From the IMG/VR virus record IMGVR_UViG_3300006754_000189, positions 1 through 22,962 of that record: a stretch of DNA of 22,962 bases; one strand, written 5' to 3'. Each line of letters begins with the position of its first letter. The first letter of the stretch is position 1. The notes under the pieces were generated by a model. That model worked only from the letters and a program-made list of their open reading frames with translations, was not told where the DNA came from and made no database searches. The translations under genes were made by a program, and so were the position numbers. This document shows positions 2,964 through 22,962 of the stretch, in pieces. The DNA comes from a virus.

Positions 2964-3872
2964 ATGGGTTGGAGACAAAATCTTTATAATAAGCGGTCGG
3001 CAAAAAAGTACGGGTGGTACCCTCGCTGGTTTGAAGCCGATGGTTTTAATGATGAACTGACTGAAAATATAAAAAACTTTCAACTGAACCACAGTCAGGC
3101 CCAAGATGGGTTGTGTGGCCCAATCACTTATCGGCTCATATTAGCCGCACGGGAAGCCTCTCAAAATAATATGCCTTCAGAAGACGAATGTAAATATATT
3201 ATTTGCGGTGACCGCAAGGTGCCCATCCAATGGGATAAAGTAAATAATATATATGAGGTTGATAACTATGCGCTCCCTTCCAACTGTTATAAAAAATATA
3301 AACCCAAGAAGAGAGACATCAAAATGATTATTACCCATTTTGATGTTTGTCTGTCGGCCGCATCTTGCAAGCGTGTTTTGGAAAAGAAAGGCATATCCAG
3401 TCACTTTGTTATTGATAATGATGGCACGATTTGTCAGATGGTAGATCCTCAAAACAGCGCTTGGCATGCTGGTAAGAGGGCTGTGAATCGGGCTTCAATT
3501 GGTGTTGATATATCAAATGTATATTACACCAAATATCAGAGTTGGTACAAACGCAAGGGATTTGGTAGTAGGCCAGTCCTTGAGGATGTCAAGGTTCACG
3601 GCGTGAAATTGAGGGATTGTTTGGGCTTCTATCCGATACAAATTGAAGCGTATAAGACTCTAGTAAAAACCCTTTGTGATTTTTATAATATTCCCCTTGA
3701 GATGCCGATGAATGAAGACGGCGACGTCCTGCGTCGCGTCAGCAAAAGTGTTCGCTCTGGCAAATTTTCTGGAATTGCGAATCATTTTCATGTGACGAGA
3801 GGCAAAATTGATACTGCCAATCTTGACTGGGATAAGGTATTGAAAGAATTGCAGGAAAATGGCCATCGTTAA
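2964..3872 (+). CDS. endolysin-type N-acetylmuramoyl-L-alanine amidase with peptidoglycan-binding domain
   Basis: 302 aa from the ATG behind AAGGGGAA; an upstream TTG would add seven residues but lacks that spacing. Residues about 25-60 (G-F-N-D-E-L-T-E-N-I-K-N-F-Q, D-G-L-C-G-P-I-T) are a PG_binding_1-type repeat. Residues about 118-290 are an Amidase_2/PGRP-like zinc amidase: I-I-T-H-F-D (His125), S-S-H-F-V-I-D-N-D-G-T-I-C-Q-M-V, A-W-H-A-G (His169), and H-x-H-x-x-x-x-K-x-D (His274/276, Lys281, Asp283), the last resembling the conserved AmpD H...K.D motif. It should cleave the amide between muramic acid and the stem peptide for lysis or DNA entry. No signal peptide is visible. Confidence 0.88.
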   Translation: MGWRQNLYNKRSAKKYGWYPRWFEADGFNDELTENIKNFQLNHSQAQDGLCGPITYRLILAAREASQNNMPSEDECKYIICGDRKVPIQWDKVNNIYEVDNYALPSNCYKKYKPKKRDIKMIITHFDVCLSAASCKRVLEKKGISSHFVIDNDGTICQMVDPQNSAWHAGKRAVNRASIGVDISNVYYTKYQSWYKRKGFGSRPVLEDVKVHGVKLRDCLGFYPIQIEAYKTLVKTLCDFYNIPLEMPMNEDGDVLRRVSKSVRSGKFSGIANHFHVTRGKIDTANLDWDKVLKELQENGHR

Positions 3873-3948
3873 CGTGGCACTCCTACTATATACTAGTATA
3901 ACAATAAGTTTAGTTTTGTTATTATTATTTTGGTATAGAGGTAAAAAG

Positions 3949-4392
3949 ATGGCAAAAAGAATAGGATTGGCAAGGACACAAGTGCTTTTGGAGCAACTTA
4001 AAAGAGACATGTCTTGGGGCGGTTCAACCTTTCAAAATTATAAGAAAACAATAGAAGCAAAGACCAGTGATTATACAATCACAGCGGCCGATAGCGGGAA
4101 AATACTTACGACTGTAGGTGCAGCGGACACAGTTATATTTACCCTCCCAGCGGCAACCCCTTCACTACAAGGGGTTTGGGTTGAAATTGTGCAAGGGGCA
4201 GAAGAGGGTATGAGGATAACATGCGCCACCGCAGGCAGTATAATTTCTCAAGGTGCCGTTGATTGGGATTATCTTGAAAATGTATCTTCTGTTTTGACTG
4301 GGGCACATGCTGAGTGTGTCTGTACAGGCACAAAATGGATTGTTCGAGTAGCAGCAGTTTCTGTTGGTTATTGGTTGTTTACAAAACTTTAA
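3949..4392 (+). CDS. beta-rich putative virion surface protein, copy 1
   Basis: 147 aa. The ATG behind AGAGGT was chosen because the paralogue downstream begins with the same M-A-K-R-I-G-L-A-R-T-Q. A longer reading from 3859 would add 30 residues with a membrane segment; its 14-nt overlap with the amidase gene makes it possible but less likely. A helical N-terminus (to about residue 37) is followed by a beta-sandwich-like region: T-S-D-Y-T-I-T-A-A-D-S-G-K-I, T-V-I-F-T-L-P-A, W-V-E-I-V-Q. This pattern is common in phage tail-fibre or capsid-decoration modules. The role is inferred. Confidence 0.7.
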   Translation: MAKRIGLARTQVLLEQLKRDMSWGGSTFQNYKKTIEAKTSDYTITAADSGKILTTVGAADTVIFTLPAATPSLQGVWVEIVQGAEEGMRITCATAGSIISQGAVDWDYLENVSSVLTGAHAECVCTGTKWIVRVAAVSVGYWLFTKL

Positions 4393-4411: not shown

Positions 4412-4455
4412 ACGAATCTAGTTTTTATTTAATGTATAAGGGGAGAAATAAAAAG

Positions 4456-4917
4456 ATGGCAAAAAGAATAGGATTGGCAAGGACACAAGCGCTTTTGGAG
4501 CAACTTAAAAGAGACATGTCTTGGGGCGGTTCAACCTTTCAAAATTATAAGAGAATAATAGAAGCAAAGACCAGCGATTATACAATCACGCTAGCCGATA
4601 GCGGGAAAATATTTACGACAGAAGGAGCTTCCGGCACTGTGGTATTCACTCTACCTGCCCCCACGACTTCACTACAAGGGGTCTGGGTTGAGATTGTTCA
4701 GGCTGCGGCTCAAGATATGAAAATAACTTGCGCCGCAATTGATAGTATTCTTTCTCAAGGTGCCGTTGATTGGGATTATCTTGAAAACACTTCGGCCACT
4801 AGGATTGGGGCACATGCTGAGTGTGTCTGTACAGGCACAAAATGGATTGTTCGGGTTTCGGGTACTTCCCAAGGCGCCGGCCTCTACTGGACGTTTGCAA
4901 ATCAAAAAAAGAAATAA
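4456..4917 (+). CDS. beta-rich putative virion surface protein, copy 2
   Basis: 153 aa, clearly paralogous to the preceding gene over its whole length. The first 43 residues are almost identical, as are G-A-V-D-W-D-Y-L-E-N and G-A-H-A-E-C-V-C-T-G-T-K-W-I-V-R-V. Differences cluster in intervening segments (A-A-P-T-T versus A-A-T-P-S; Q-A-A-A-Q-D versus Q-G-A-E-E-G) and at the C-terminus, which here ends Y-W-T-F-A-N-Q-K-K-K. GGGGAG precedes the ATG. This is a tandem duplication with divergence in likely loops, as expected for surface-exposed phage proteins. The next gene starts two bases after the stop. Confidence 0.7.
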   Translation: MAKRIGLARTQALLEQLKRDMSWGGSTFQNYKRIIEAKTSDYTITLADSGKIFTTEGASGTVVFTLPAPTTSLQGVWVEIVQAAAQDMKITCAAIDSILSQGAVDWDYLENTSATRIGAHAECVCTGTKWIVRVSGTSQGAGLYWTFANQKKK

Positions 4918-6663: not shown

Positions 6664-8238
6664 ATGTCACGCAAATATGAGTCTGGTACAAATCTCCACC
6701 AGAAAATATTAAATGGAGCCAACATCTTAGCCGATAATGTTGCTTCGACTTTAGGCCCCCGTGGGAGAAATGTTATTCTTCACCACCCGGAGCAAATGCC
6801 CGTTATCACAAAAGATGGTGTAACTGTTGCAAGATTTGTACAACTTAAAGATCCTTTTGAAAATGCCGGCGCTCAAATTATTAAACAGGCTGCATCTAAA
6901 ACCAATTCAGAAGCGGGGGATGGAACTACCACTTCCACAGTCTTAGCTAGGGCAATTCTCGCCCAAGCTCAGAAGTATTTAATGGCCGGCTCTGCCCCAA
7001 TCGAACTTAAACGTGGAATGGATAAGGCGGTTGAAAAAATTGTTAATAATATCAAGGACATGGCCACGCCGATTAGGTCCATAGAGGAGATAACACACAT
7101 TGCAACAATCTCAGCCAATAATGATGAGAAGATAGGTAAATTAATTGCGAAGGGCGTTGATTTGGCCGGGAAAGACGGCGCGATTACGATCGAAGAAGCA
7201 CGATCCATCGAAACTAGCTTAGAATTGGTAGAAGGATTTAGATTTAATTCAGGATATTTAGCTAGTGCTTTTGTTACTGATGAAAAAAGAGGGGTTGTAA
7301 AATATGATGAGCCCATTATTTTGGTTACTGATGAAAAAATTGATTCTGTAGATGATTTAATGCCTGCTTTGGAAATTGCCGCTAGAGAGGCACGCCCCTT
7401 TATTATTATAGCTGAGAATATTGAAGGACAAGCTCTAGCCGCGCTTATTATGAATGCTCTGCGAGGAACAATGCGAGTGGTGGGAATCAGGGCGCCCGGC
7501 TATGGAGAAGAGCGACGTAACATTCTCAAGGATTTGGCCCTTTCGGTGGGGGCAGCTTTTATTACACGTCAAAACAATTTGAGATTGAGAGACGTAAAAT
7601 TGACCCACTTTGGCAAAGCAAAAACTATTGAAAGCTCAAAGTCTCTGACGACCATTGTTGGAGGCAAAGGAGATTCAGACGATGTGGAAAAAAGAATTGA
7701 CTTGCTAAAGGCAGAGATAAAAGAGGCCCCCAGTATGCAGGAAGCCGAAAAAATTCAAGAAAGAATTACGAGGTTAGCCAGTGGAATTGCTGTAATTAGA
7801 GTGGGTGCCGCTAGCGACGTCGAAATGGTTGAAAAGAAGCATAGAATTGAAGATGCTTTAGAGGCGGTTAATGCTGCACAATTAGAAGGAATTGTTCCTG
7901 GTGGCGGCGTCGCCCTAATTCGCGCTGCAAAAAAATTAAAAATTGATACAAAAAGCTCCGATCAAAAATTAGGAGCTAAAATTATCTGTGAAGCGATCAA
8001 GGAGCCTTTAAAACAGATGGCTTTAAACGCCGGATATTCTCCTGACATATTAATATCATTAGTAGAAAAAGCAAAAGGCGATAAAGGTATTGATTTTAAT
8101 ACCGGCAAATTAACTAATTTGCTTGAAAAGGGAATCATAGATCCAGCCAAGGTAACTCGTTGTGCCATTCAGAATGCAGTTTCTGTGGCTTCAATTTTAA
8201 TTACAACCAACTATGCTATTATCGAGAGTCTAGACTAG
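6664..8238 (+). CDS. groEL: phage-encoded chaperonin GroEL
   Basis: 524 aa, a full-length group I chaperonin subunit that folds proteins in an ATP-driven double ring. Seen: S-T-L-G-P-R-G-R (28-35), T-K-D-G-V-T-V-A (49-56), the ATP motif G-D-G-T-T-T (85-90), G-Y-G-E-E-R-R-N in the apical domain, E-D-A-L-E-A-V-N containing the equivalent of the catalytic Asp398 of E. coli GroEL, and P-G-G-G-V-A-L-I. The Gly-Gly-Met repeat tail is missing; the protein ends I-I-E-S-L-D. No co-chaperonin (GroES/gp31-like) gene is visible in the window, so it would need the host's, one elsewhere, or none. It probably folds phage structural proteins. It is preceded by its own promoter. Confidence 0.97.
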   Translation: MSRKYESGTNLHQKILNGANILADNVASTLGPRGRNVILHHPEQMPVITKDGVTVARFVQLKDPFENAGAQIIKQAASKTNSEAGDGTTTSTVLARAILAQAQKYLMAGSAPIELKRGMDKAVEKIVNNIKDMATPIRSIEEITHIATISANNDEKIGKLIAKGVDLAGKDGAITIEEARSIETSLELVEGFRFNSGYLASAFVTDEKRGVVKYDEPIILVTDEKIDSVDDLMPALEIAAREARPFIIIAENIEGQALAALIMNALRGTMRVVGIRAPGYGEERRNILKDLALSVGAAFITRQNNLRLRDVKLTHFGKAKTIESSKSLTTIVGGKGDSDDVEKRIDLLKAEIKEAPSMQEAEKIQERITRLASGIAVIRVGAASDVEMVEKKHRIEDALEAVNAAQLEGIVPGGGVALIRAAKKLKIDTKSSDQKLGAKIICEAIKEPLKQMALNAGYSPDILISLVEKAKGDKGIDFNTGKLTNLLEKGIIDPAKVTRCAIQNAVSVASILITTNYAIIESLD

Positions 8239-8591: not shown

Positions 8592-8903
8592 ATGCGAGTT
8601 AACGTAACCTATTCAGTCCAACTGGCTGAAATAAGGCAGCTAGTTCAAGAGTTGCTTTTAAAAGTGGAAGATGACATAGAGCAAATTAATGAACTCTTTC
8701 CAGCAATTCAGGAAAGCATTAATAAAGAACAAGAAAGTAAAGCGGTGCAATTGCTTGAAGGGTGCCGGCAGAATATTACGAATGTAGATCATGCGCTTTT
8801 TGATTGTCGAAATATTCTTAATGGCTACCAACAAGCAACTTTGCAGTTGAGGGAAATGGCTGCGACGACCAAAGAAGAGAATATTAATGTTGAAGGTGGG
8901 TGA
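8592..8903 (+). CDS. hypothetical helical protein
   Basis: 103 aa; ATG chosen because AAGGAG sits at the right distance, while an upstream TTG would lie inside the promoter. The protein is all-helical and acidic (L-A-E-I-R-Q-L-V-Q-E-L-L-L-K-V-E-D-D-I), with C-R and C-R-N-I motifs, resembling a helical bundle. Function unknown. Its last residues N-V-E-G-G are encoded by bases that also start the next gene, the same joint format as in the M-K-V-G-D-L-V arrays further on. Confidence 0.75.
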   Translation: MRVNVTYSVQLAEIRQLVQELLLKVEDDIEQINELFPAIQESINKEQESKAVQLLEGCRQNITNVDHALFDCRNILNGYQQATLQLREMAATTKEENINVEGG

Positions 8904-11531: not shown

Positions 11532-12069
11532 AGAAATATTAAAAGAAAAATATGTTGAATTGTCGGTGAAAGATTTTATTTTGAGAGAAGGTTTGAAAAC
11601 GGAAATTGAATGTAATATTTTTTTTTCTAATGACTGGGAGGATATTTTTATTGTAGGCCATGGAGCCGGCCTTGTCGATGCTCTTTACACCGCCATGATA
11701 GATCATTTTTCACCTAAATTTATTTCCCTCAAAAATGTTTCTTTTGATGACTTTGTTGTGCAAGTTAAATTTAAAAACAGTTCGAGGAAATCAGCATCTC
11801 CAGTAGAGATTAAACTATCCCTGAAAAATGGAAATGATAGGAATATATATTTCTCTTCAGAATCTTATTCGATGGTGGGGGGTGCAATTTCTGTGGTGAC
11901 AACTGCCTGTGAATATTTAATAAACGCTGAGAGAGCTATCCTCCAGTTACGCGATTTTATTGCCGATGCTCGTCAAAGAGAAAGAATAGATGTAATGGAC
12001 GTTTATGTTGATAAGATGGTGAAGTTAGTAGGAATCACCACGTATGAAGAAGTTTTAGATAAATGTTGA
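11476..12069 (+). CDS. stand-alone LeuA-like regulatory (dimerisation) domain protein
   Basis: 197 aa. Residues about 57-155 resemble the C-terminal allosteric domain of 2-isopropylmalate/homocitrate synthases: G-H-G-A-G-L-V-D-A-L-Y-T-A-M (61-74; family form G-x-G-P-V-D-A), then S-L-K-N-V-S-F-D-D-F-V-V-Q-V, and the helix V-T-T-A-C-E-Y-L-I-N-A-E. The TIM-barrel catalytic domain is absent; the first 50 residues are a short charged helical part. It could modulate the host enzyme or have been repurposed. The match is from memory of the family pattern and is moderate. It overlaps the PAP2-like gene by 56 bases, and its TGA stop lies inside the next promoter's -35 box. Confidence 0.6.
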   Translation: MLTSYPEELLQKKCQLIVKEILKEKYVELSVKDFILREGLKTEIECNIFFSNDWEDIFIVGHGAGLVDALYTAMIDHFSPKFISLKNVSFDDFVVQVKFKNSSRKSASPVEIKLSLKNGNDRNIYFSSESYSMVGGAISVVTTACEYLINAERAILQLRDFIADARQRERIDVMDVYVDKMVKLVGITTYEEVLDKC

Positions 12070-12094
12070 CATATTTTAATTTTTGTGTTAGGAT
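12066..12094 (+). promoter_or_regulatory. sigma-70 promoter of the first small-protein array
   Basis: TTGACA, 17 bp, TAGGAT with TG one base before it (extended -10). The TGA of the -35 box is the stop codon of the upstream gene. It is the only promoter seen for the seven genes up to 13333. Confidence 0.75.
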
Positions 12095-12115: not shown

Positions 12116-12301
12116 ATGAAAATCGGTGATTTAGTTGAACCTTATGACAAGTTTATGGTAGAGCGCGTTTACTACGGAATCGGTGTGATATTAGATAGTT
12201 ATGAAGATGAAGATGGATTACTTTTTTTTGAGGTGCAGTGGGCTCACTCCCGTCAGTGGTTTGGTCAAGATGAAATGAGGGTCATCAGTGAGAGCAATTA
12301 A
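12116..12301 (+). CDS. M-K-V-G-D-L-V family small protein
   Basis: 61 aa, M-K-I-G-D-L-V-E start, G-I-G-V-I-L-D-S-Y core, F-F-E-V-Q-W, and tail M-R-V-I-S-E-S-N. It is the head gene of the array, with AAAGGTGAT as ribosome site in a short leader. The pattern G-D-L-V, then a central G-I-G-V-I-L strand and V-x-W, is that of a five-strand SH3-like barrel. The last 14 bases are also the start of the GIY-YIG gene. Confidence 0.8.
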   Translation: MKIGDLVEPYDKFMVERVYYGIGVILDSYEDEDGLLFFEVQWAHSRQWFGQDEMRVISESN

Positions 12302-12548
12302 ATGGTTTTTATACGTGGCAAGGTGCGCCGATGGCACCCTTTATACAGGGGTTACTACCGATATAGATAGGCGTTTAAATGAACACAATAGGGGTAATAG
12401 GGGGGCGAAATATACTAAAACCCGACGTCCCATCACCCTAGTTTATTCGACGGTTTTTAAAGGCCGCTCAGAGGCCCAGAAAGCAGAATATGCCTTCAAG
12501 CGGTTGACGCGGAAAGAAAAGTTAAAGGTAATTAATGAAAGTCGGTGA
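12288..12548 (+). CDS. GIY-YIG nuclease of the YhbQ/UPF0213 type inside the array
   Basis: 86 aa, GTG start. Seen: W-F-L-Y-V-A-R-C-A-D-G-T-L-Y-T-G-V-T-T-D-I-D-R-R-L, i.e. strand 1 L-Y-V and strand 2 L-Y-T-G-V-T in place of GIY and YIG, catalytic-helix Arg29, E-H-N-R-G, G-A-K-Y-T-K, R-R-P-I-T-L-V-Y, and the metal-ligand helix S-E-A-Q-K-A-E. All expected catalytic elements appear present, so it may cut DNA. It overlaps the genes on both sides by 14 nt, and its C-terminus V-I-N-E-S-R is dictated by the start of the next cassette. Host YhbQ-type proteins are single-domain like this one. Confidence 0.88.
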   Translation: MRAIKWFLYVARCADGTLYTGVTTDIDRRLNEHNRGNRGAKYTKTRRPITLVYSTVFKGRSEAQKAEYAFKRLTRKEKLKVINESR

Positions 12549-12756
12549 TTTGGTAAAAACATTTCACGAGGGTGAGTGGGCTGGGACACCCAATTATGGT
12601 CTAATTGCGCGCTTGGCCTATAATATTAGTAGTCGTCATGATGATGGGTGGGAATGGAACGCTCGATGCATCGATGTATTGTGGGCGGGTGAAGCCACCC
12701 CTTCGCGAGTTGATTATGTAGCCTTTGAGAACGGCTCTGTGAGGGTGGTAGAATGA
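12535..12756 (+). CDS. M-K-V-G-D-L-V family small protein
   Basis: 73 aa. M-K-V-G-D-L-V-K start, Y-G-L-I-A-R-L, R-C-I-D-V-L-W and end S-V-R-V-V-E. AAGGT lies five bases before the ATG, inside the GIY-YIG gene's C-terminal codons. It lacks the usual I-S-E-S-R tail, because the next gene begins with a different four-base ATGA overlap. Confidence 0.75.
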   Translation: MKVGDLVKTFHEGEWAGTPNYGLIARLAYNISSRHDDGWEWNARCIDVLWAGEATPSRVDYVAFENGSVRVVE

Positions 12757-12944
12757 TAGGATCCCTCGTAAAAGATCCACCTTCGCACCTACTTGGGATT
12801 ATTTTGGGATCGAGGAAGGACTCAGATCCGGTAGAATGGAGGGTTTTTTGGTTCCAGCCAGCAAAAGGAATGAAGCTCTCCACTTATCCATATGTTTCTT
12901 ATCGAGAAACTGATCAGGTGGAGGTCATAAGTGAAGGTGGGTGA
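12753..12944 (+). CDS. divergent array member
   Basis: 63 aa. The start M-I-G-S-L-V-K is a degraded form of the family's M-K-V-G-D-L-V, but the rest fits: L-G-I-I-L-G-S, W-R-V-F-W-F and the tail Q-V-E-V-I-S-E-G-G. The overlap with the upstream gene is four bases, and GAGGGTGG is its ribosome site. The 3' joint with the next gene is the standard 14-nt one. Confidence 0.7.
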   Translation: MIGSLVKDPPSHLLGIILGSRKDSDPVEWRVFWFQPAKGMKLSTYPYVSYRETDQVEVISEGG

Positions 12945-13140
12945 CTTAGTTCAAGTTATAGAACCGCGCGCCTGCGGTGGGATAGATAAGGGTCGTATGG
13001 GGTTAGTTACCCAACACCTTCCCGGCTGGAATCCTGCGGGTCCAGAGCGTTGGATTATAGATTGGATACCAAGTAACCAAAAACCTCTTTCGACTTGCAC
13101 CCTTGGGAAGGGAATAAAGGTTATTAATGAGGGCGGGTGA
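12931..13140 (+). CDS. M-K-V-G-D-L-V family small protein
   Basis: 69 aa, GTG start with GAGGT in the upstream gene's codons. Core G-R-M-G-L-V-T-Q-H and W-I-I-D-W-I-P, tail I-K-V-I-N-E-G-G. Several Pro, Gly and Trp residues, no cysteine pair. Overlaps both neighbours by 14 nt. Function unknown; SH3-like fold is inferred. Confidence 0.75.
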   Translation: MKVGDLVQVIEPRACGGIDKGRMGLVTQHLPGWNPAGPERWIIDWIPSNQKPLSTCTLGKGIKVINEGG

Positions 13141-13333
13141 TTTAGTTAGGATTCACGATCCAGATGAACACAAAATAGATGGAACACCCTATTCTGTTTT
13201 AGGAATTCTTATTAATATAAGACAGAAAACTTTTAACGCTAATGCACATCGTATTTTTACGGTATATATAGAGGGAGAGCAGAGGGTTTTTGATGAACCC
13301 TTTTGGGCTGCAACCGTTATTAGTTCGGCGTAA
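13127..13333 (+). CDS. M-K-V-G-D-L-V family small protein, last of the first run
   Basis: 68 aa, starting M-R-A-G-D-L-V-R at an ATG behind AAGGT. Core Y-S-V-L-G-I-L-I-N-I, tail A-A-T-V-I-S-S-A. The E-S-R ending is missing because no cassette follows directly: a promoter and an RNA gene come next. Confidence 0.75.
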   Translation: MRAGDLVRIHDPDEHKIDGTPYSVLGILINIRQKTFNANAHRIFTVYIEGEQRVFDEPFWAATVISSA

Positions 13334-13386: not shown

Positions 13387-13392
13387 GATCAC

Positions 13393-13550
13393 TATACTAG
13401 GAGAACAGCCTTGAGTAACACTTGGGGGGTCGCTAAACAAAAGGCAATAATGGATTAACCAACCTTCAATGATACTCATGAGGGGAACATAATCGAAAGG
13501 TATCTAGCGATCTGCGGCGAAGACAGCGGAGCGACCCCCCTCTTTTTTTT
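13393..13550 (+). ncRNA. about 155-nt structured RNA with long closing stem and intrinsic terminator
   Basis: GGGGGGTCGCT (13424-13434) is perfectly complementary over 11 bases to AGCGACCCCCC (13530-13540), which is followed by TC and eight T. The 95 bases between can form three more helices: AAGG/CCTT (13441-44 with 13463-66), GATACT/GGTATC (13471-76 with 13499-504, one G-U) and CTGC/GCGG (13512-15 with 13526-29, one G-U). The result is a multi-branched fold closed at its base by the terminator stem. I do not recognise the family (not tRNA, tmRNA, RNase P or 6S by eye). An alternative is a leader-peptide attenuator: AGGAG and a TTG begin a 15-codon ORF (13411-13458) crossing the 5' stem strand. 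Confidence 0.65.
13530..13550 (+). terminator. 3' half of closing stem plus T-tract
   Basis: A GC-rich stem strand is directly followed by TCTTTTTTTT. The partner strand is about 95 bases upstream, which is long for a plain terminator and points to a discrete RNA. Confidence 0.65.
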
Positions 13551-13579
13551 ATATTTGTTTTTATCCATGAGGGGAAAAT

Positions 13580-13789
13580 GTGAAAGTCGGTGATTTGGTA
13601 AAATTTGATTACGTTAACGGGCACACGAGTCATATCAACAACAAAGTGGCCATTTATCTTGGGGAACGCCCCATCCACAGGGAGGACGGTATAACTGTCA
13701 ACAACTTTGAGGTTCATATTGTTGGCGAAGACTGGCCGAGTTTGTGTGATGGCCTGATGAAGCGTTGGTTGAAGCTGGTGACCCAGTGA
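13580..13789 (+). CDS. M-K-V-G-D-L-V family small protein
   Basis: 69 aa, GTG start behind GAGGGGAAA. Start M-K-V-G-D-L-V-K, core N-K-V-A-I-Y-L-G-E, E-V-H-I-V-G, tail W-L-K-L-V-T-Q. No promoter lies between the RNA terminator and this gene, so it relies on read-through. Eleven bases around its ribosome site (CATGAGGGGAA) also occur inside the RNA at 13477-13487. Confidence 0.75.
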   Translation: MKVGDLVKFDYVNGHTSHINNKVAIYLGERPIHREDGITVNNFEVHIVGEDWPSLCDGLMKRWLKLVTQ

Positions 13790-13983
13790 AAATTGGCGAC
13801 CTTGTGATATTTGAAAATGTGACGCCTGGAGATGGTCACTGGGTGGTGGAATTTTGCCAGAATCGCACTCCAATGGTGGTGATTGAACTTGGCCCAGGTC
13901 CATTTCATATGGTGGTTGCCGATCCTACTGGCACCTTACAATTTCCTCGACGTTCGAGCCTAACAGTCTTGAGTAAAATTTAA
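13786..13983 (+). CDS. M-K-V-G-D-L-V family small protein
   Basis: 65 aa from a GTG in a GTGA overlap; an in-frame TTG farther upstream would spoil the family start M-K-I-G-D-L-V-I. Core H-W-V-V-E-F-C, M-V-V-I-E-L-G-P and end S-L-T-V-L-S-K-I. The joint is four bases, not fourteen, and the DNA differs from the consensus (AAAATTGGCGACCTT), suggesting an older or independently evolved cassette. Confidence 0.7.
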   Translation: MKIGDLVIFENVTPGDGHWVVEFCQNRTPMVVIELGPGPFHMVVADPTGTLQFPRRSSLTVLSKI

Positions 13984-14000: not shown

Positions 14001-14029
14001 TTGACAAAGCTAGTTGTTTATGAGATAAT
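14001..14029 (+). promoter_or_regulatory. sigma-70 promoter, TGAGATAAT class
   Basis: TTGACA, 17 bp, GATAAT with TGA ahead of it. T-rich stretch upstream. First of five promoters sharing the nine bases TGAGATAAT. Confidence 0.85.
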
Positions 14030-15994: not shown

Positions 15995-17233
15995 ATGAAT
16001 GAGACAAAACGAACGTTTGATTTGAACATGCACACTGCTCGACTTTTGATGCAGGAGCCGTTCTTCGCCTCTCTCAGCCGGCGCGTGACGAAGGCTGCTA
16101 GTAATGCCATTCCCACTGCGGGAGTTCGCGTCAACCCCGAAACTGCTCGATTTGAGATGCTCTACAATCCAGAATTCTTTGAGAAACTGACGGATGAAGA
16201 GCGCACTGCCGTTCTCATTCATGAGTTCTATCATCTCATTTTTCAGCATGTGACGGATCGCAAGCCCTGGACAGGGCAGGATGTGAAGCCCAAAGAGGCT
16301 CGCCAATGGAACATCGCGTGTGACTTGGCAATCAATTCACACATTCAAAATCTTCCAGAGATGGCTTGCAAGCCAGGGGAAGGACCGTTTGTTGATTTTC
16401 AGACTGCCTTGTCAGCGGAAGCATATTTGAACCTCCTCAAAAAGCAAGAGGAAGAAAACAAAGAGCAATCGACTGAGAAAGGGGAGGAAGGGGAGGAAGG
16501 GGAGAAAGGCTCAGGAGAAGATTCTGGGGGGATGCCAGAGGATTCTTTTGACAGTCATGACGGTTGGGGCAAAGGTGACCCCACCTCGACAGAGATTGCG
16601 AAAGAGCGCGTGAAAGAATACTTGAAAGAAGCCGCCACCGATGCTCAGAAGGCTGGAGGCTGGGGTACGGTTACGAGTGCCATGCAACGTGAGATTATGG
16701 CACGTATGACGACAAAGGTTGACTGGAAAAAGGTTCTTCGTTACTTTGTCAAGACTTCGCGCCGCGCTTCCAAACGCAGCACCGTGAAACGACTGAACAA
16801 GCGTTACGCTTACATCCACGCAGGTAAAAAGGTCACTCGACGAGCAAACATCGCGATTAGTATTGATCAAAGCGGTTCTGTCAGTGATAAAATGTTGGCT
16901 GCTTTCTTTAGTGAACTCAACAAGTTAGCTAAGTTGGCGGAGTTTACTGTTATTCCTTTCGATGATAAAGTCTTTGAAGAAAAGGTTTATGTCTGGAAGA
17001 AGGGTGAGAATAAAAAGTGGGAGCGTGTTTTGTGCGGTGGTACTAACTTTGACGCTCCCACGGAATACGTCAATAAGCATGGCTTCGATGGTCATATCAT
17101 CCTTACAGATATGTTGGCTCCCAAACCAAAGGCTAGCAAATGCCAGAGAATGTGGATGACTACTGCTTACTATGCTAATCGCCCTTACTTCAAAACAAAT
17201 GAGCGCACTCTAGCGATTGATTGTGAAGAATAA
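15995..17233 (+). CDS. VWA-domain protein with putative metallopeptidase domain (DUF2201-like), MoxR partner
   Basis: 412 aa. The N-terminal domain has H-E-F-Y-H (76-80), the H-E-x-x-H zinc motif, followed by W-N-I-A-C-D-L-A-I-N as in DUF2201-type proteins. A Glu/Gly/Ser-rich linker (about 150-200) leads to a VWA-like domain with MIDAS residues D291-x-S293-x-S295, Thr350 (G-G-T-N-F-D) and Asp372 (I-L-T-D). MoxR/VWA pairs are known as metal-dependent chaperone systems; here the partner may also be a peptidase. The first ATG lacks a Shine-Dalgarno and sits at the predicted transcript start, so translation is likely leaderless; Met12 is the alternative start. Confidence 0.85.
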   Translation: MNETKRTFDLNMHTARLLMQEPFFASLSRRVTKAASNAIPTAGVRVNPETARFEMLYNPEFFEKLTDEERTAVLIHEFYHLIFQHVTDRKPWTGQDVKPKEARQWNIACDLAINSHIQNLPEMACKPGEGPFVDFQTALSAEAYLNLLKKQEEENKEQSTEKGEEGEEGEKGSGEDSGGMPEDSFDSHDGWGKGDPTSTEIAKERVKEYLKEAATDAQKAGGWGTVTSAMQREIMARMTTKVDWKKVLRYFVKTSRRASKRSTVKRLNKRYAYIHAGKKVTRRANIAISIDQSGSVSDKMLAAFFSELNKLAKLAEFTVIPFDDKVFEEKVYVWKKGENKKWERVLCGGTNFDAPTEYVNKHGFDGHIILTDMLAPKPKASKCQRMWMTTAYYANRPYFKTNERTLAIDCEE

Positions 17234-17248
17234 AAAAGAAAAAACATC

Positions 17249-17277
17249 TTGACAATTTGTCTTTTGTATGAGATAAT
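17249..17277 (+). promoter_or_regulatory. sigma-70 promoter, TGAGATAAT class
   Basis: TTGACA, 17 bp, GATAAT. A-rich upstream sequence; shares the block ACATCTTGACAATT with the promoter at 20034. It serves the zinc-knuckle gene and the second array. Confidence 0.85.
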
Positions 17278-17309: not shown

Positions 17310-17939
17310 ATGAGTTATCACGGGTCAGTTACTTGTTCCTGGTGCACGCATAGAGGGCACAATAAGGGAGGCTGCGAAAAGCGTAAAACATGGATAAAGG
17401 AAAATCCTGATAGCTACGATGCTCAGCTAGAGGCAGCACGAAAAAGTAAAGTTCAAAATCGTAAGTGTTCTTACTGTAAAGAACCACAACATACTCGTCG
17501 AACTTGCCCGGTCCTGAAAACTGATAAGATAACTTTGAAAGAGCGTCTCACGAATTCGCGCGCCGACATTGGCAAAATTCTCATTGAGCGAGGGATCGGG
17601 GTCGGCTCCCTGGTTTGCCTTCAGGAAGGCTATTGGGATGACCAGAAGGTATGTGGTCTTATCGAAGGTGTGTTATGGTCTGAAACTGATAGGGTAAGCA
17701 TGGTAAAACTTTCAGTGAAAACCGTTGCGGGAAAAACTACCGGATATCGTGAAATTAATATTGAGAGGCTCGACAATAAGGCCTATAATTCATTAATGGT
17801 TCTGTCCCCTATCACTCCCGAATTGGTGGAGGCAGCGCTGCCGATAAGATGGAAAAATGGAAATGATTATAAGGAAGAGGACTATCTCCCCAAAGGACAA
17901 CCGCGACCATGGTGTTTTCAGACCAATGAAAGTCGGTGA
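17310..17939 (+). CDS. double zinc-knuckle (CCHC) protein leading into the second array
   Basis: 209 aa, ATG behind GGGAGAG. Two zinc knuckles of form C-x2-C-x4-H-x4-C: C9, C12, H17, C22 and C53, C56, H61, C66. Such knuckles bind single-stranded nucleic acid, most often RNA. Residues about 95-180 hold a small-barrel-like stretch (I-G-V-G-S-L-V-C-L, G-L-I-E-G-V-L-W) which resembles the array proteins' G-D-L-V and G-I-I patterns, so the gene may be an array protein fused to knuckles. The end Q-T-N-E-S-R overlaps the next cassette by the standard 14 nt. Confidence 0.85.
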   Translation: MSYHGSVTCSWCTHRGHNKGGCEKRKTWIKENPDSYDAQLEAARKSKVQNRKCSYCKEPQHTRRTCPVLKTDKITLKERLTNSRADIGKILIERGIGVGSLVCLQEGYWDDQKVCGLIEGVLWSETDRVSMVKLSVKTVAGKTTGYREINIERLDNKAYNSLMVLSPITPELVEAALPIRWKNGNDYKEEDYLPKGQPRPWCFQTNESR

Positions 17940-18081
17940 TTTAGTAAAATATGTGACAGGCTGCATTAGTGTAGTTTTGTATATCAATGATGCTGGTGGG
18001 ACTGTGAAAGTTGTCAACGACAACGGACGCATCTGTTGGTTAGTTACTTCTGATTGTGAGGTTATAAGTGAAAGTCGGTGA
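17926..18081 (+). CDS. M-K-V-G-D-L-V family small protein
   Basis: 51 aa, ATG start within the zinc-knuckle gene. M-K-V-G-D-L-V-K, core I-S-V-V-L-Y-I-N-D, tail C-E-V-I-S-E-S-R. An in-frame extension upstream (to 17857) was rejected because it lies wholly in the other gene. One of the shortest members and close to a minimal barrel. Confidence 0.75.
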   Translation: MKVGDLVKYVTGCISVVLYINDAGGTVKVVNDNGRICWLVTSDCEVISESR

Positions 18082-18271
18082 TTTGGTTATTTATAAACCC
18101 CATGCCAGCACCTATGAAGGCACAGGCTTGATACACACGGTAGAACGCGCCGCTGGTTTTCCCGGCGGTTATCGTTACAAAATCAGTTGGCCAGCAAAAC
18201 CAGCGCACATTGGGAAAACAATGACTTGGGAAAGTCCACGAAATTTTGAGGTTATCAGTGAAAGTCGGTGA
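18068..18271 (+). CDS. M-K-V-G-D-L-V family small protein (Y-K-P-H-A type, copy A)
   Basis: 67 aa, GTG start with GAGGT six bases upstream. M-K-V-G-D-L-V-I-Y-K-P-H-A, G-T-G-L-I-H, Y-R-Y-K-I-S-W-P-A-K-P-A-H-I-G-K, then F-E-V-I-S-E-S-R. Closely similar to the gene at 18608, two cassettes downstream, in protein and DNA, showing a fairly recent duplication. Confidence 0.8.
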   Translation: MKVGDLVIYKPHASTYEGTGLIHTVERAAGFPGGYRYKISWPAKPAHIGKTMTWESPRNFEVISESR

Positions 18272-18455
18272 TTTAGTTTTAGTGGTGAAGAGGGATTATT
18301 ATTTTTCTGCCACCGGGAAGAAGATGGGCATAATAACCGAGTTGTCGGAACCCACCCCGATGTTTTCACACCAGACGGCAGTTGTGACATTTAATGATTG
18401 CGTCTATGATGGTATCTCAACTCGGTTGTTAGAGGTTATAAGTGAAAGTCGGTGA
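18258..18455 (+). CDS. M-K-V-G-D-L-V family small protein
   Basis: 65 aa, GTG start (a TTG four codons earlier would break the family start). Core K-M-G-I-I-T-E-L, T-A-V-V-T-F, tail L-L-E-V-I-S-E-S-R. Standard 14-nt overlaps on both sides. Confidence 0.8.
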   Translation: MKVGDLVLVVKRDYYFSATGKKMGIITELSEPTPMFSHQTAVVTFNDCVYDGISTRLLEVISESR

Positions 18456-18603
18456 TTTAATTACGGTTCGATTGTATGGAGGATTTTATCAGATTATGAA
18501 AATCTACCGCAACGAACATGGAGGACCGAGATTGAATATTCTGTGTCTAACGACCGGGCAGCGCACTCACAGTGTGCGCCCGTCCAATGTAAAGGTAGTT
18601 TAA
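18442..18603 (+). CDS. M-K-V-G-D-L-V family small protein (53 aa)
   Basis: GTG start at the standard joint. M-K-V-G-D-L-I-T-V-R-L-Y-G-G-F, core L-N-I-L-C-L-T, end S-N-V-K-V-V with a TAA. It does not run into the next start: four bases separate them and the I-S-E-S-R tail is missing. The following cassette has its own AAGGT. Confidence 0.75.
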   Translation: MKVGDLITVRLYGGFYQIMKIYRNEHGGPRLNILCLTTGQRTHSVRPSNVKVV

Positions 18604-18607
18604 ACTA

Positions 18608-18808
18608 ATGAAAGTCGGTGATTTAGTTATTTATAAACCCCATGCCAAGGAGTGGAAAGGCACAGGTTTGATACATGCGGTAGCGGAAAACACGCACCCA
18701 ACTGCCAGCCGTTACAAGATCAGTTGGCCAGCAAAACCGGCGCACATTGGGAAAACAATGACTTGGGAAGCTGCGCGAAACATTGAGGTCTTGAGTGAAG
18801 CCCGGTGA
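18608..18808 (+). CDS. M-K-V-G-D-L-V family small protein (Y-K-P-H-A type, copy B)
   Basis: 66 aa, ATG start. Nearly the same as copy A at 18068 apart from the segment after K-P-H-A (K-E-W-K-G versus S-T-Y-E-G) and the middle loop (A-E-N-T-H-P-T-A-S versus E-R-A-A-G-F-P-G-G). Tail I-E-V-L-S-E-A-R. The variation is confined to two loops around a fixed core. Confidence 0.8.
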   Translation: MKVGDLVIYKPHAKEWKGTGLIHAVAENTHPTASRYKISWPAKPAHIGKTMTWEAARNIEVLSEAR

Positions 18809-18983
18809 TTTGGTTCGTAGGAGAAAGACAGGCAGCACCGACTTTCTAGCAGGCCGGTTCGCACTAGTGGTTGAGATTAGAGAGTCTAATGGATACATTT
18901 ATCCCAGTTTCATGATTTTAGACACTGGCGAGATTGGTTCTTGTTCTGGTACTCTCTTGGAGGTTATCAGTGAAGCTAGTTAG
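18795..18983 (+). CDS. M-K-V-G-D-L-V family small protein
   Basis: 62 aa, GTG start, M-K-P-G-D-L-V-R. Core F-A-L-V-V-E-I-R-E, tail L-L-E-V-I-S-E-A-S. The last residues A-S arise because the next gene begins GTGAAGCTAGTTAG, not GTGAAAGTC; the E-V-I-S-E part is unchanged. Confidence 0.78.
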   Translation: MKPGDLVRRRKTGSTDFLAGRFALVVEIRESNGYIYPSFMILDTGEIGSCSGTLLEVISEAS

Positions 18984-19275
18984 AGACAACATCCCAAAGA
19001 TTATTGAAGATAGTGGTAAATCTTGTAAATATCACGTTGCTGATTGCGACGAATATAAATCACGCCTGTATACAAAAATGGGAGAGGAACTAGCTGAATT
19101 TATCAGCACTCCATGTTACGAAGAAGCTGCCGATATGTGGGAGGTCTTCCGAGCTATTTGCGAACTACACCAGCTTGATCTTGATTACGTTAAATTTGTG
19201 GCCCTCGAAAAAGAAAGAAAACGAGGGGCCTTCAAAGATAAAATTGTGTTGGAAGAAGTAAATGAAAGTCGGTGA
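18970..19275 (+). CDS. MazG-like / phosphoribosyl-ATP pyrophosphohydrolase-like NTP pyrophosphatase
   Basis: 101 aa from the GTG at the standard joint. M-K-L-V-R-D-N-I-P-K-I-I-E-D-S-G is the hallmark start of this all-alpha NTP-PPase group; M-G-E-E-L-A-E-F and Y-E-E-A-A-D-M-W-E-V supply the acidic Mg2+ ligands (E-E-x-x-E and E-x-x-D), and K-R-G-A-F-K-D-K-I-V-L corresponds to the usual R-G-x-F ending. These enzymes hydrolyse (d)NTPs to monophosphate and pyrophosphate; phage MazG-like proteins are often linked to nucleotide control. It ends E-E-V-N-E-S-R, overlapping the next cassette by 14 nt. Confidence 0.85.
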   Translation: MKLVRDNIPKIIEDSGKSCKYHVADCDEYKSRLYTKMGEELAEFISTPCYEEAADMWEVFRAICELHQLDLDYVKFVALEKERKRGAFKDKIVLEEVNESR

Positions 19276-19483
19276 TTTAATAAGAGAAAAAGAATTTCCT
19301 CAAGATGCCTGCGGTATCATCGTGGAAGTTGGAGACTTGAGAAGGAAGAAGCCCTATAAGGTTTTTTGCTCTGCTTGGGGCGAATTATGCTCTTTTGAAA
19401 AGAAATATATTCAGGAAGAGTGCGAGGTTATAAGTGATAGTGCATCATCGTCTGCCCTAAAAAAAAGAGGAAAAAACTCTTGA
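19262..19483 (+). CDS. M-K-V-G-D-L-V family small protein with broken 3' joint
   Basis: 73 aa, ATG start. M-K-V-G-D-L-I-R, core A-C-G-I-I-V-E-V-G-D, Y-K-V-F-C-S. The standard tail begins (C-E-V-I-S) but the joint reads GTGATAG, not GTGAAAG; the frame continues through D-S-A-S-S-S-A-L-K-K-R-G-K-N-S and stops at the TGA inside the next -35 box. This looks like a cassette whose downstream partner was lost and replaced by a promoter. Confidence 0.78.
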   Translation: MKVGDLIREKEFPQDACGIIVEVGDLRRKKPYKVFCSAWGELCSFEKKYIQEECEVISDSASSSALKKRGKNS

Positions 19484-22643: not shown

Positions 22644-22790
22644 ATGGATACGTCAATTTATTGGGAGGCTACAGGAATATTTGTTTTATGTTTGTCTATT
22701 GGGGTCGCGTCCCTTTATCTTCTTAACAAATTGGATCAGCGCTCTCGCGAAAAACAGATTAAAAAGATATCGAGAAGGAAAGACAAGTAA
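22644..22790 (+). CDS. small membrane protein (48 aa)
   Basis: ATG behind AGGGAGA. One membrane segment (A-T-G-I-F-V-L-C-L-S-I-G-V-A-S-L-Y-L-L) and a very basic tail (R-S-R-E-K-Q-I-K-K-I-S-R-R-K-D-K). N-out, C-in predicted. Its last base starts the next gene (TAATG). Confidence 0.65.
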   Translation: MDTSIYWEATGIFVLCLSIGVASLYLLNKLDQRSREKQIKKISRRKDK

Positions 22791-22962
22791 TGAAAGTCGG
22801 TGATCTAGTAAAATTATCTCAGAAAGGTCATGAGACACTTTGGTGTAAGAAATTTCGTGATATGGTGGGCGTTGTAACTGAGATTGTAGAAAGGCAGTTA
22901 ATATATGATCTCGCCGCATCGGTGAAATATTATACAGTTATGTTTACTGGCAAAAAAGGAAC
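22790..22962 (+). CDS. M-K-V-G-D-L-V family small protein, cut by the window end
   Basis: 57 residues are visible: M-K-V-G-D-L-V-K-L-S-Q-K-G, core M-V-G-V-V-T-E-I-V and Y-Y-T-V-M-F-T-G. The DNA start ATGAAAGTCGGTGATCTAGT is one base from the consensus. It suggests a third array or an isolated unit begins here. Confidence 0.75.
   Translation, partial: MKVGDLVKLSQKGHETLWCKKFRDMVGVVTEIVERQLIYDLAASVKYYTVMFTGKKG

Follow-up and report, generated by a model that had tools for sequence, protein, structure and literature searches.

The 22,962-base virus record IMGVR_UViG_3300006754_000189, analyzed from position 1 to position 22,962 and referred to here as the window, carries two arrays of small genes in which the end of one gene and the start of the next share a 14-nucleotide (nt) stretch read in two frames. 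We call these stretches joints and the small genes cassettes; joints were recognized as overlaps of two open reading frames (ORFs), and the joints and array parts given below lie on the plus strand. Comparison with related contigs points to the joints as the places at which cassettes are exchanged. Array 2 is preceded by a putative sigma70-like promoter (TTGACA-17-GATAAT, 17249..17277), proposed from its consensus match, and by a foreign, zinc-finger-like gene (17310..17939; PF16588, E = 1.1e-6) that ends in -TNESR through the first joint; in the relative L129, this gene ends by a 4-nt overlap. The first joint (ATGAAAGTCGGTGA, 17926..17939) opens the cassette MKVGDLVKYVTGC (17926..18081), of which L171 has a copy between other neighbors. 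Three GTGAAAGTCGGTGA joints follow (18068..18081, 18258..18271, and 18442..18455), opening the cassettes VKVGDLVIYKPHAS (18068..18271), VKVGDLVLVVKRD (18258..18455), and VKVGDLITVRLYG (18442..18603). After a gap of 4 nt lies MKVGDLVIYKPHAK (18608..18808), a duplicate of the 18068 cassette in which the homology begins inside the joint motif. Joint GTGAAGCCCGGTGA (18795..18808) opens the cassette VKPGDLVRRRKTG (18795..18983), and the atypical joint GTGAAGCTAGTTAG (18970..18983) forms the start of a KLVRDxIPxII gene (18970..19275) that appears captured, judging from its context in relatives. A last ATGAAAGTCGGTGA joint (19262..19275) opens the final cassette, MKVGDLIREKEFP (19262..19483), the stop of which falls within the TTGACA of the next promoter-like site. 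Strong promoter-like sites stand before array 1 (12066), before array 2 (17249), and directly after array 2 (19480); between the array 2 cassettes, from 17926 to 19275 on the coding strand, promoter matches were weak only (9/12).

Array 1 also follows a sigma70-like site, again a candidate by consensus match (TTGACA-17-TAGGAT, 12066..12094). Its first cassette (12116..12301, MKIGDL...VISESN), predicted from a structure model and fold comparison to be an SH3/Tudor-like barrel, is joined by the atypical joint GTGAGAGCAATTAA (12288..12301) to the start of a GIY-YIG endonuclease-domain gene (12288..12548; PF01541, E = 1.5e-18, 67.3 bits versus a cut-off of 22.6), which ends in -VINESR and whose context in relatives likewise suggests capture. 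The ATGAAAGTCGGTGA joint at 12535..12548 opens the cassette MKVGDLVKTFHEG (12535..12756), followed with a 4-nt overlap by the cassette MIGSLVKDPP...EVISEGG (12753..12944), by joint GTGAAGGTGGGTGA (12931..12944) with cassette VKVGDLVQVIEP (12931..13140), and by joint ATGAGGGCGGGTGA (13127..13140) with the last cassette, MRAGDLVRIHDP (13127..13333). Motif scanning added an MKVGDL-type gene (13580..13789) with the motif at its start and no upstream overlap and a VKIGDL-type gene (13786..13983) with a 4-nt GTGA overlap, an alternative start to the listed ORF at 13765.

A sequence-only reading of the window had listed twelve exact 14-nt overlaps, most of them said to carry one motif. All twelve were confirmed as two-ORF overlaps, although the isolated joint TTGAAGGTGGGTGA (8890..8903) has this length only with a TTG start; with the ATG at 8887 as the start, the overlap is 17 nt. 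Ten of the twelve carry the motif (three as GTGAAAGTCGGTGA, three as ATGAAAGTCGGTGA, and four as variants, at 8890, 12931, 13127, and 18795), whereas those at 12288 and 18970 are unrelated to it beyond the start region. One joint had been overlooked, a further ATGAAAGTCGGTGA found by motif scan at 22790..22803, the downstream cassette of which runs past the window end. With up to 3 mismatches allowed, GTGAAAGTCGGTGA occurred 17 times in the window (1.84 expected; no shuffle gave 17). Starts of the MKVGD/MKIGD type without a 14-nt overlap were present at 12116, 13580, 13786 (4 nt), and 18608. Three other 14-nt overlaps, at 1958, 3859, and 20635, have unrelated sequences, and overlap length by itself is therefore not diagnostic. 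The gene starting at 3859 (3859-4392) and the similar gene in tandem with it (4432-4917) both carry MAKRIGLARTQ-LLEQLKRDMSWGGSTFQNYK.

Over 668 joints, the consensus was (T)TGGAGGTTATCAGTGAAAGTCGGTGATTTGGT. Its first part is read upstream as ...E-V-I-S-E-S-R-stop and its later part downstream as M-K-V-G-D-L-V; the common ending noticed earlier in upstream proteins, the -SESR tail, is thus the next gene's start read in the other frame. Upstream E-V-I-S is written GAG-GTT-AT(A/C)-AGT directly before the downstream start, and this stretch looks like a ribosome-binding site for the next gene at normal spacing. Variants with K or Q and with GTC, GTA, or GTG are all tolerated. The joint contains no palindrome (longest self-complementary word, 4), its consensus folds weakly (−4.2 kcal/mol), and it has no stem-loop terminator.

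The upstream proteins had been described as having nothing else in common. This holds for the GIY-YIG, KLVRD-type, and zinc-finger genes, which are truly foreign, but the majority of upstream proteins share the MKVGD...LEVISESR family with the downstream ones, and most cassettes are divergent members of this single predicted SH3/Tudor-like barrel family. In an alignment of 52 diverse cassettes, M1, G4, and D5 were invariant. An AlphaFold2 model of the 12116 cassette (mean predicted local distance difference test score [pLDDT], 90.8) gave a five-stranded barrel of ~60 amino acids with strands at 6-9, 23-30, 36-41, 46-50, and 54-58, the first and last of which are encoded at or beside joints. 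The best PDB matches (PetP, Tudor, and eS4 KOW; TM ~0.7) were all weak, none with an E value below 0.001. No Pfam family was matched by more than 2 of the 52 members (best E, 0.002), and neither Pfam nor PHROGs assigned a named function to the cassette proteins. The proteins may be accessory proteins of fast turnover that bind host proteins or nucleic acid and play a role in infection.

The window also encodes a ClpP-like protease, an amidase, and a PAP2 protein, and its AAA_5 ATPase gene is followed by that of a DUF2201/VWA protein. A phage-borne GroEL-type chaperonin (6664-8238, PF00118) has relatives in 11 viral loci. Many marine viral contigs, several of 184 to 190 kb, contained relatives of the AAA gene, and the arrays probably belong to a large family of large uncultured marine tailed phages, that is, bacterial viruses. 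At least 120 IMG/VR stretches matched a degenerate joint pattern, whereas a reversed control pattern gave 0 matches across virus records. Virus records of ~185 to 193 kb had their joints on one strand, mostly in 1 to 3 clusters, and among loci with at least 4 joints, all joints were on one strand in 120 of 121. Genes with an M-x-x-G-D start in the collected loci overlapped the previous gene by 14 nt in 990 cases and by 4 nt in 208; among 4,233 other genes, 14-nt overlaps (195) were no commoner than 8-nt overlaps (197). Cultured phages gave no match to the arrays at the DNA level or to three cassette proteins by tblastn, and blastn with the joint alone returned only 17- to 22-nt pieces in unrelated phages, which is chance level. 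The best cultured relatives by the AAA gene (~30% amino acid identity) were the Vibrio phage Va1 group; Va1 had 0 14-nt GD joints within the 31 kb examined. A literature search for MKVGDLV gave no match. Separately, record CP070664.1 (L246/L252), a 2.8-Mb metagenome-assembled chromosome labelled WOR-3, has four consecutive joints and may represent a prophage, a host gene cluster, or a binning error.

Gain and loss of cassettes were assessed by comparison with relatives. In L129, ~90% identical to the window, one additional cassette of 157 base pairs (bp) is inserted exactly at joint 12535, and the three cassettes bounded by joints 17926 and 18442 are missing, with the edges exactly at these joints; 17 to 21 nt of common sequence were present at each junction of these differences. 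In L129, the ortholog of the 12535 cassette, behind the inserted one, has GTA at the usual start (15995-16029), and an upstream ATG there could lengthen the overlap. Of 73 distinct clean indels between relatives, 14-nt joints accounted for 33, other MxxGD starts for 8, gene boundaries of other kinds for 27, and gene interiors for 5. Joints had been expected to receive 20.3 from their local share of gene boundaries (P ~ 2e-4); this preference for joints agrees with the sequence-only reading, against which breakpoints scattered at random would have spoken. In loci gathered via the GroEL and AAA genes only, and hence independently of the motif, 14 of 32 boundary events were at joints versus 7.6 expected (P = 0.004). 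Twenty of the 33 insertions at joints measured 139 to 214 bp, the size of one cassette.

We then mapped breakpoints within the overlap, using cassette pairs of at least 82% protein identity that had an unrelated neighbor and were aligned on the joint; intervals came from a bootstrap over cassette families (37 with the upstream and 22 with the downstream neighbor unrelated). When the upstream neighbor was unrelated, identity equaled the joint background up to base −1 (0.56 versus 0.58 at −6 to −1) and was at ortholog level by +6 to +8 (0.90 versus 0.72). When the downstream neighbor was unrelated, identity stayed at ortholog level to ~+14 of the next start and fell to background at +15 to +17 (0.61 versus 0.62). 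Both edges of the moving unit therefore lie inside the 14-nt overlap, where breakpoints had been predicted, and the ribosome-binding site therefore remains with the upstream gene. Such positions would be expected from recombination within an identical stretch and, less sharply, from selection for intact ORFs.

The same cassette was found beside different neighbors, as foreseen, in 81 pairs with at least 80% amino acid identity and both neighbors unrelated. Cassettes 95 to 100% identical in DNA occurred in contigs that were otherwise 68 to 78% identical or had no other shared DNA: one cassette was 100% identical between L099 and L104 (other shared DNA, 68%), and one was 97% identical between L025 and L045, which share nothing else. 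The window cassette at 17926-18081 was 89% identical to its L171 copy, with other shared DNA at 66%. Three cassettes common to L170 and L227 lie on the same strand but in completely opposite order. A gene order fixed across relatives, which would have spoken against exchange, was thus not found. Taken together, the comparisons show gain, loss, reordering, and horizontal sharing of cassettes with breakpoints inside the overlap. The proposal that genes are exchanged by recombination at the joint stands as to exchange and breakpoint location; the pathway of recombination is conjectural, and membership of one protein family also explains much of the likeness between cassettes.

Genes without an MKVGD start also ended through joints. 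We counted 82 such genes in 52 families, an upper bound because some are long-start variants of cassette genes; among them were a DUF3310 gene and a 2-thiouracil desulfurase-like gene. Relatives of the GIY-YIG gene that precede a GD-type gene end in -NESR, -DANR, -YEGR, or -GEHR via the 14-nt overlap (window, L129, L224, L228, and L230), whereas relatives without a following GD-type gene have no such tail. The KLVRD gene overlapped its upstream gene by 14 nt in four contigs (the window and 3 others), each time with a different upstream gene. Its start may resemble that of MazG-like pyrophosphohydrolases; the gene at 18970-19275 had no Pfam match to that family. Silent bases were then considered. 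Only one joint site, the last base of the valine codon, allows both C and A without changing either protein (GTC/GTA; CGG/AGG, both arginine). Joints had 531 GTC versus 87 GTA there (212 to 27 in the motif-independent loci), whereas in long genes the two make up 24% and 19% of the valine codons. CGG is the rarest arginine codon. A test of silent sites in the overlap for excess conservation had been proposed, and this bias speaks in its favor, but the bias is partly present in starts without an overlap.

We consider it probable, at roughly seven in ten, that each array is an operon-like series of exchangeable small genes shuffled by recombination at joints that carry ribosome-binding site, start, and stop. 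Each joint would combine a Shine-Dalgarno sequence, a start codon, and the upstream stop codon in one repeated stretch, and recombination from joint to joint, within or between phages, would swap, add, or delete whole genes. With the same repeat at both ends of every cassette, each such event would always yield a functional ribosome-binding site, start, and stop. A foreign gene joining the array would meet a stop at base 4 (A/GTGA) in one frame or at base 14 (GG-TGA) in the other and would thereby acquire a 4-nt overlap or an -xESR tail. Exchange may be driven by short-homology recombination, via a phage recombinase or annealing, and the array genes are presumably translationally coupled and transcribed from the promoter-like site 5′ of the array. 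Several points weigh against this view. No recombinase gene was recognized among the window proteins scanned. Of the 73 indels, 68 were at gene boundaries anyway, so selection for intact genes accounts for part of the pattern, and the enrichment of joints over other boundaries was only ~1.6-fold. The GTC bias extends, more weakly (~55%), to starts without an overlap, and common descent or a start-region effect therefore contributes to it. All sequences are metagenomic assemblies, in which repeats could in principle produce joining errors, and the pairs of relatives are not fully independent. A bolder version, which we think rather less likely than not, holds that the coding out-of-frame overlap is itself kept by selection as a crossover site; the arrays would then be a protein-coding counterpart of the integron, drawing on a shared pool of interchangeable single-gene cassettes and able to capture foreign genes (GIY-YIG endonuclease, DUF3310, 2-thiouracil desulfurase-like).

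The strongest competitor, though an unlikely one, attributes everything to selection: illegitimate recombination would occur anywhere, the survivors would be intact genes with coupled translation, and the overlap would be imposed by the M-K-V-G-D start, the joint sequence having no role in recombination. GGT-GA does give TGA in one frame by necessity, and foreign upstream genes of at least 80 amino acids that meet MxxGD starts had 14-nt (34%), 4-nt (26%), or no (25%) overlap, the first two as expected from the stop present there in each alternative frame; the respect of indels for gene boundaries fits as well. Against it, joints were preferred over other boundaries of the same stretch, breakpoints fell within the overlap rather than elsewhere near the junction, and the joint is conserved at a doubly silent site. 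A purely within-lineage history of tandem duplication, divergence, and differential loss, in which phages exchange nothing, is very improbable. Most cassettes are indeed of one family, the window holds the duplicate pair at 18068 and 18608, and shared cassette pairs are mostly collinear (440 concordant versus 20 discordant), from which it follows that gain and loss are commoner than rearrangement; yet the near-identical cassettes in otherwise divergent contigs already contradict it, unless those contigs are misassembled, as do the reversed cassette orders. We give hardly any credence to a dedicated integron-like system in which a recombinase recognizes the joint as an attachment site: one-ORF units in a single orientation, a uniform joint sequence, and breakpoints in a 14-nt core would suit it, but the weakly folding joint was rejected as a site-specific recombination site because it has no palindrome, its variants are all tolerated, and the missing recombinase counts here too. 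Equally far-fetched is an artefact in which short-read assemblers fused unrelated array pieces at joints, which are repeats of ~20 to 35 nt in metagenome contigs throughout, because the repeats are shorter than a usual read, single-cassette differences lie inside long collinear blocks at 90 to 99% identity in different samples, and identical 13-cassette sets occur in two separate contigs (L226/L227).

Joint-based recombination has counterparts among known arrangements. Promoter early stem-loops (PeSLs) are located between genes. They are mobile regulatory cassettes of T4-type phages (Arbiol et al. 2010; Comeau et al. 2014; via PMC4503421) and resemble the joints as short repeats at gene junctions of large phages where small accessory-gene modules are shuffled; shuffling between related phages at a junction element was found here too. 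PeSLs carry an early promoter and a stem-loop (PMC4503421), whereas the joint has no stem-loop and no promoter consensus, codes in two frames, and forms both the upstream stop and the downstream start. Start-associated sequences (SAS) of cluster K mycobacteriophages, GGGATAGGAGCCC before the start, are short conserved sequences just 5′ of many starts in genes of different families, and their authors suggested such repeats as possible recombination targets (PMC3203893). The joint consensus in the form compared, TTGGAGGTTATCAGTGAAAGTCGGTGATTTGGT, differs from GGGATAGGAGCCC; its conservation continues through the start codon into codons 2 to 7 and determines the upstream stop, and comparison demonstrates exchange at the joint. 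The joint arrays are akin to short gene-boundary sequences through which modules are shuffled, PeSLs (PMC4503421) and, as suggested, SAS (PMC3203893); what is new is a uniform boundary that consists of an out-of-frame protein-coding overlap and unites ribosome-binding site, start, and stop.

In integron arrays, cassettes of one gene each follow a single promoter, all in one orientation, and are gained, lost, and reordered. The present arrays share these traits, with a putative promoter, but their joints lack an attC-like palindrome, neighboring genes overlap rather than being separated by recombination sites, and no integron integrase was found among the window proteins scanned. Lambdoid phages, in the modular theory of Susskind and Botstein and reportedly in work by Clark et al. 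in 2001, have conserved short gene-boundary sequences that allow homologous module exchange; these are said to be few and to differ from boundary to boundary, whereas here a single standard joint recurs within one array and in dozens of genomes. Phages manage to acquire and rearrange small accessory genes while keeping expression intact, and this long-standing puzzle is commonly explained by illegitimate recombination followed by selection. In the joint arrays, exchange would be safe by design because a single short repeat supplies ribosome-binding site, start, and stop; the rule can be seen at the level of single bases, with breakpoints inside the repeat. The arrays are common in marine metagenomes and were not found in the cultured phages searched, and they offer a direct handle on tests of homology-driven modular evolution and on prediction of cassette boundaries. 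For annotation, -SESR tails should be taken as readings of the next gene's start, and no shared protein feature should be deduced from them.

Beyond the arrays, the stretch from 13390 to 13552 likely encodes a structured noncoding RNA. It is preceded by a TTGACA-17-TACAAT site, ends in a GC-rich helix and a T-run, folds better than shuffled sequences (z = −3.15), and is conserved in L129 and L139, where changes in the closing helix appear to compensate for each other; it had no Rfam match, and Rfam and tRNA scans of the whole window gave no hits. Near-identical strong sigma70-like sites (TTGACA-17-GATAAT or TATAAT) were present at 14001, 14756, 15960, 17249, 19480, and 20034, all on one strand and each shortly 5′ of a gene.

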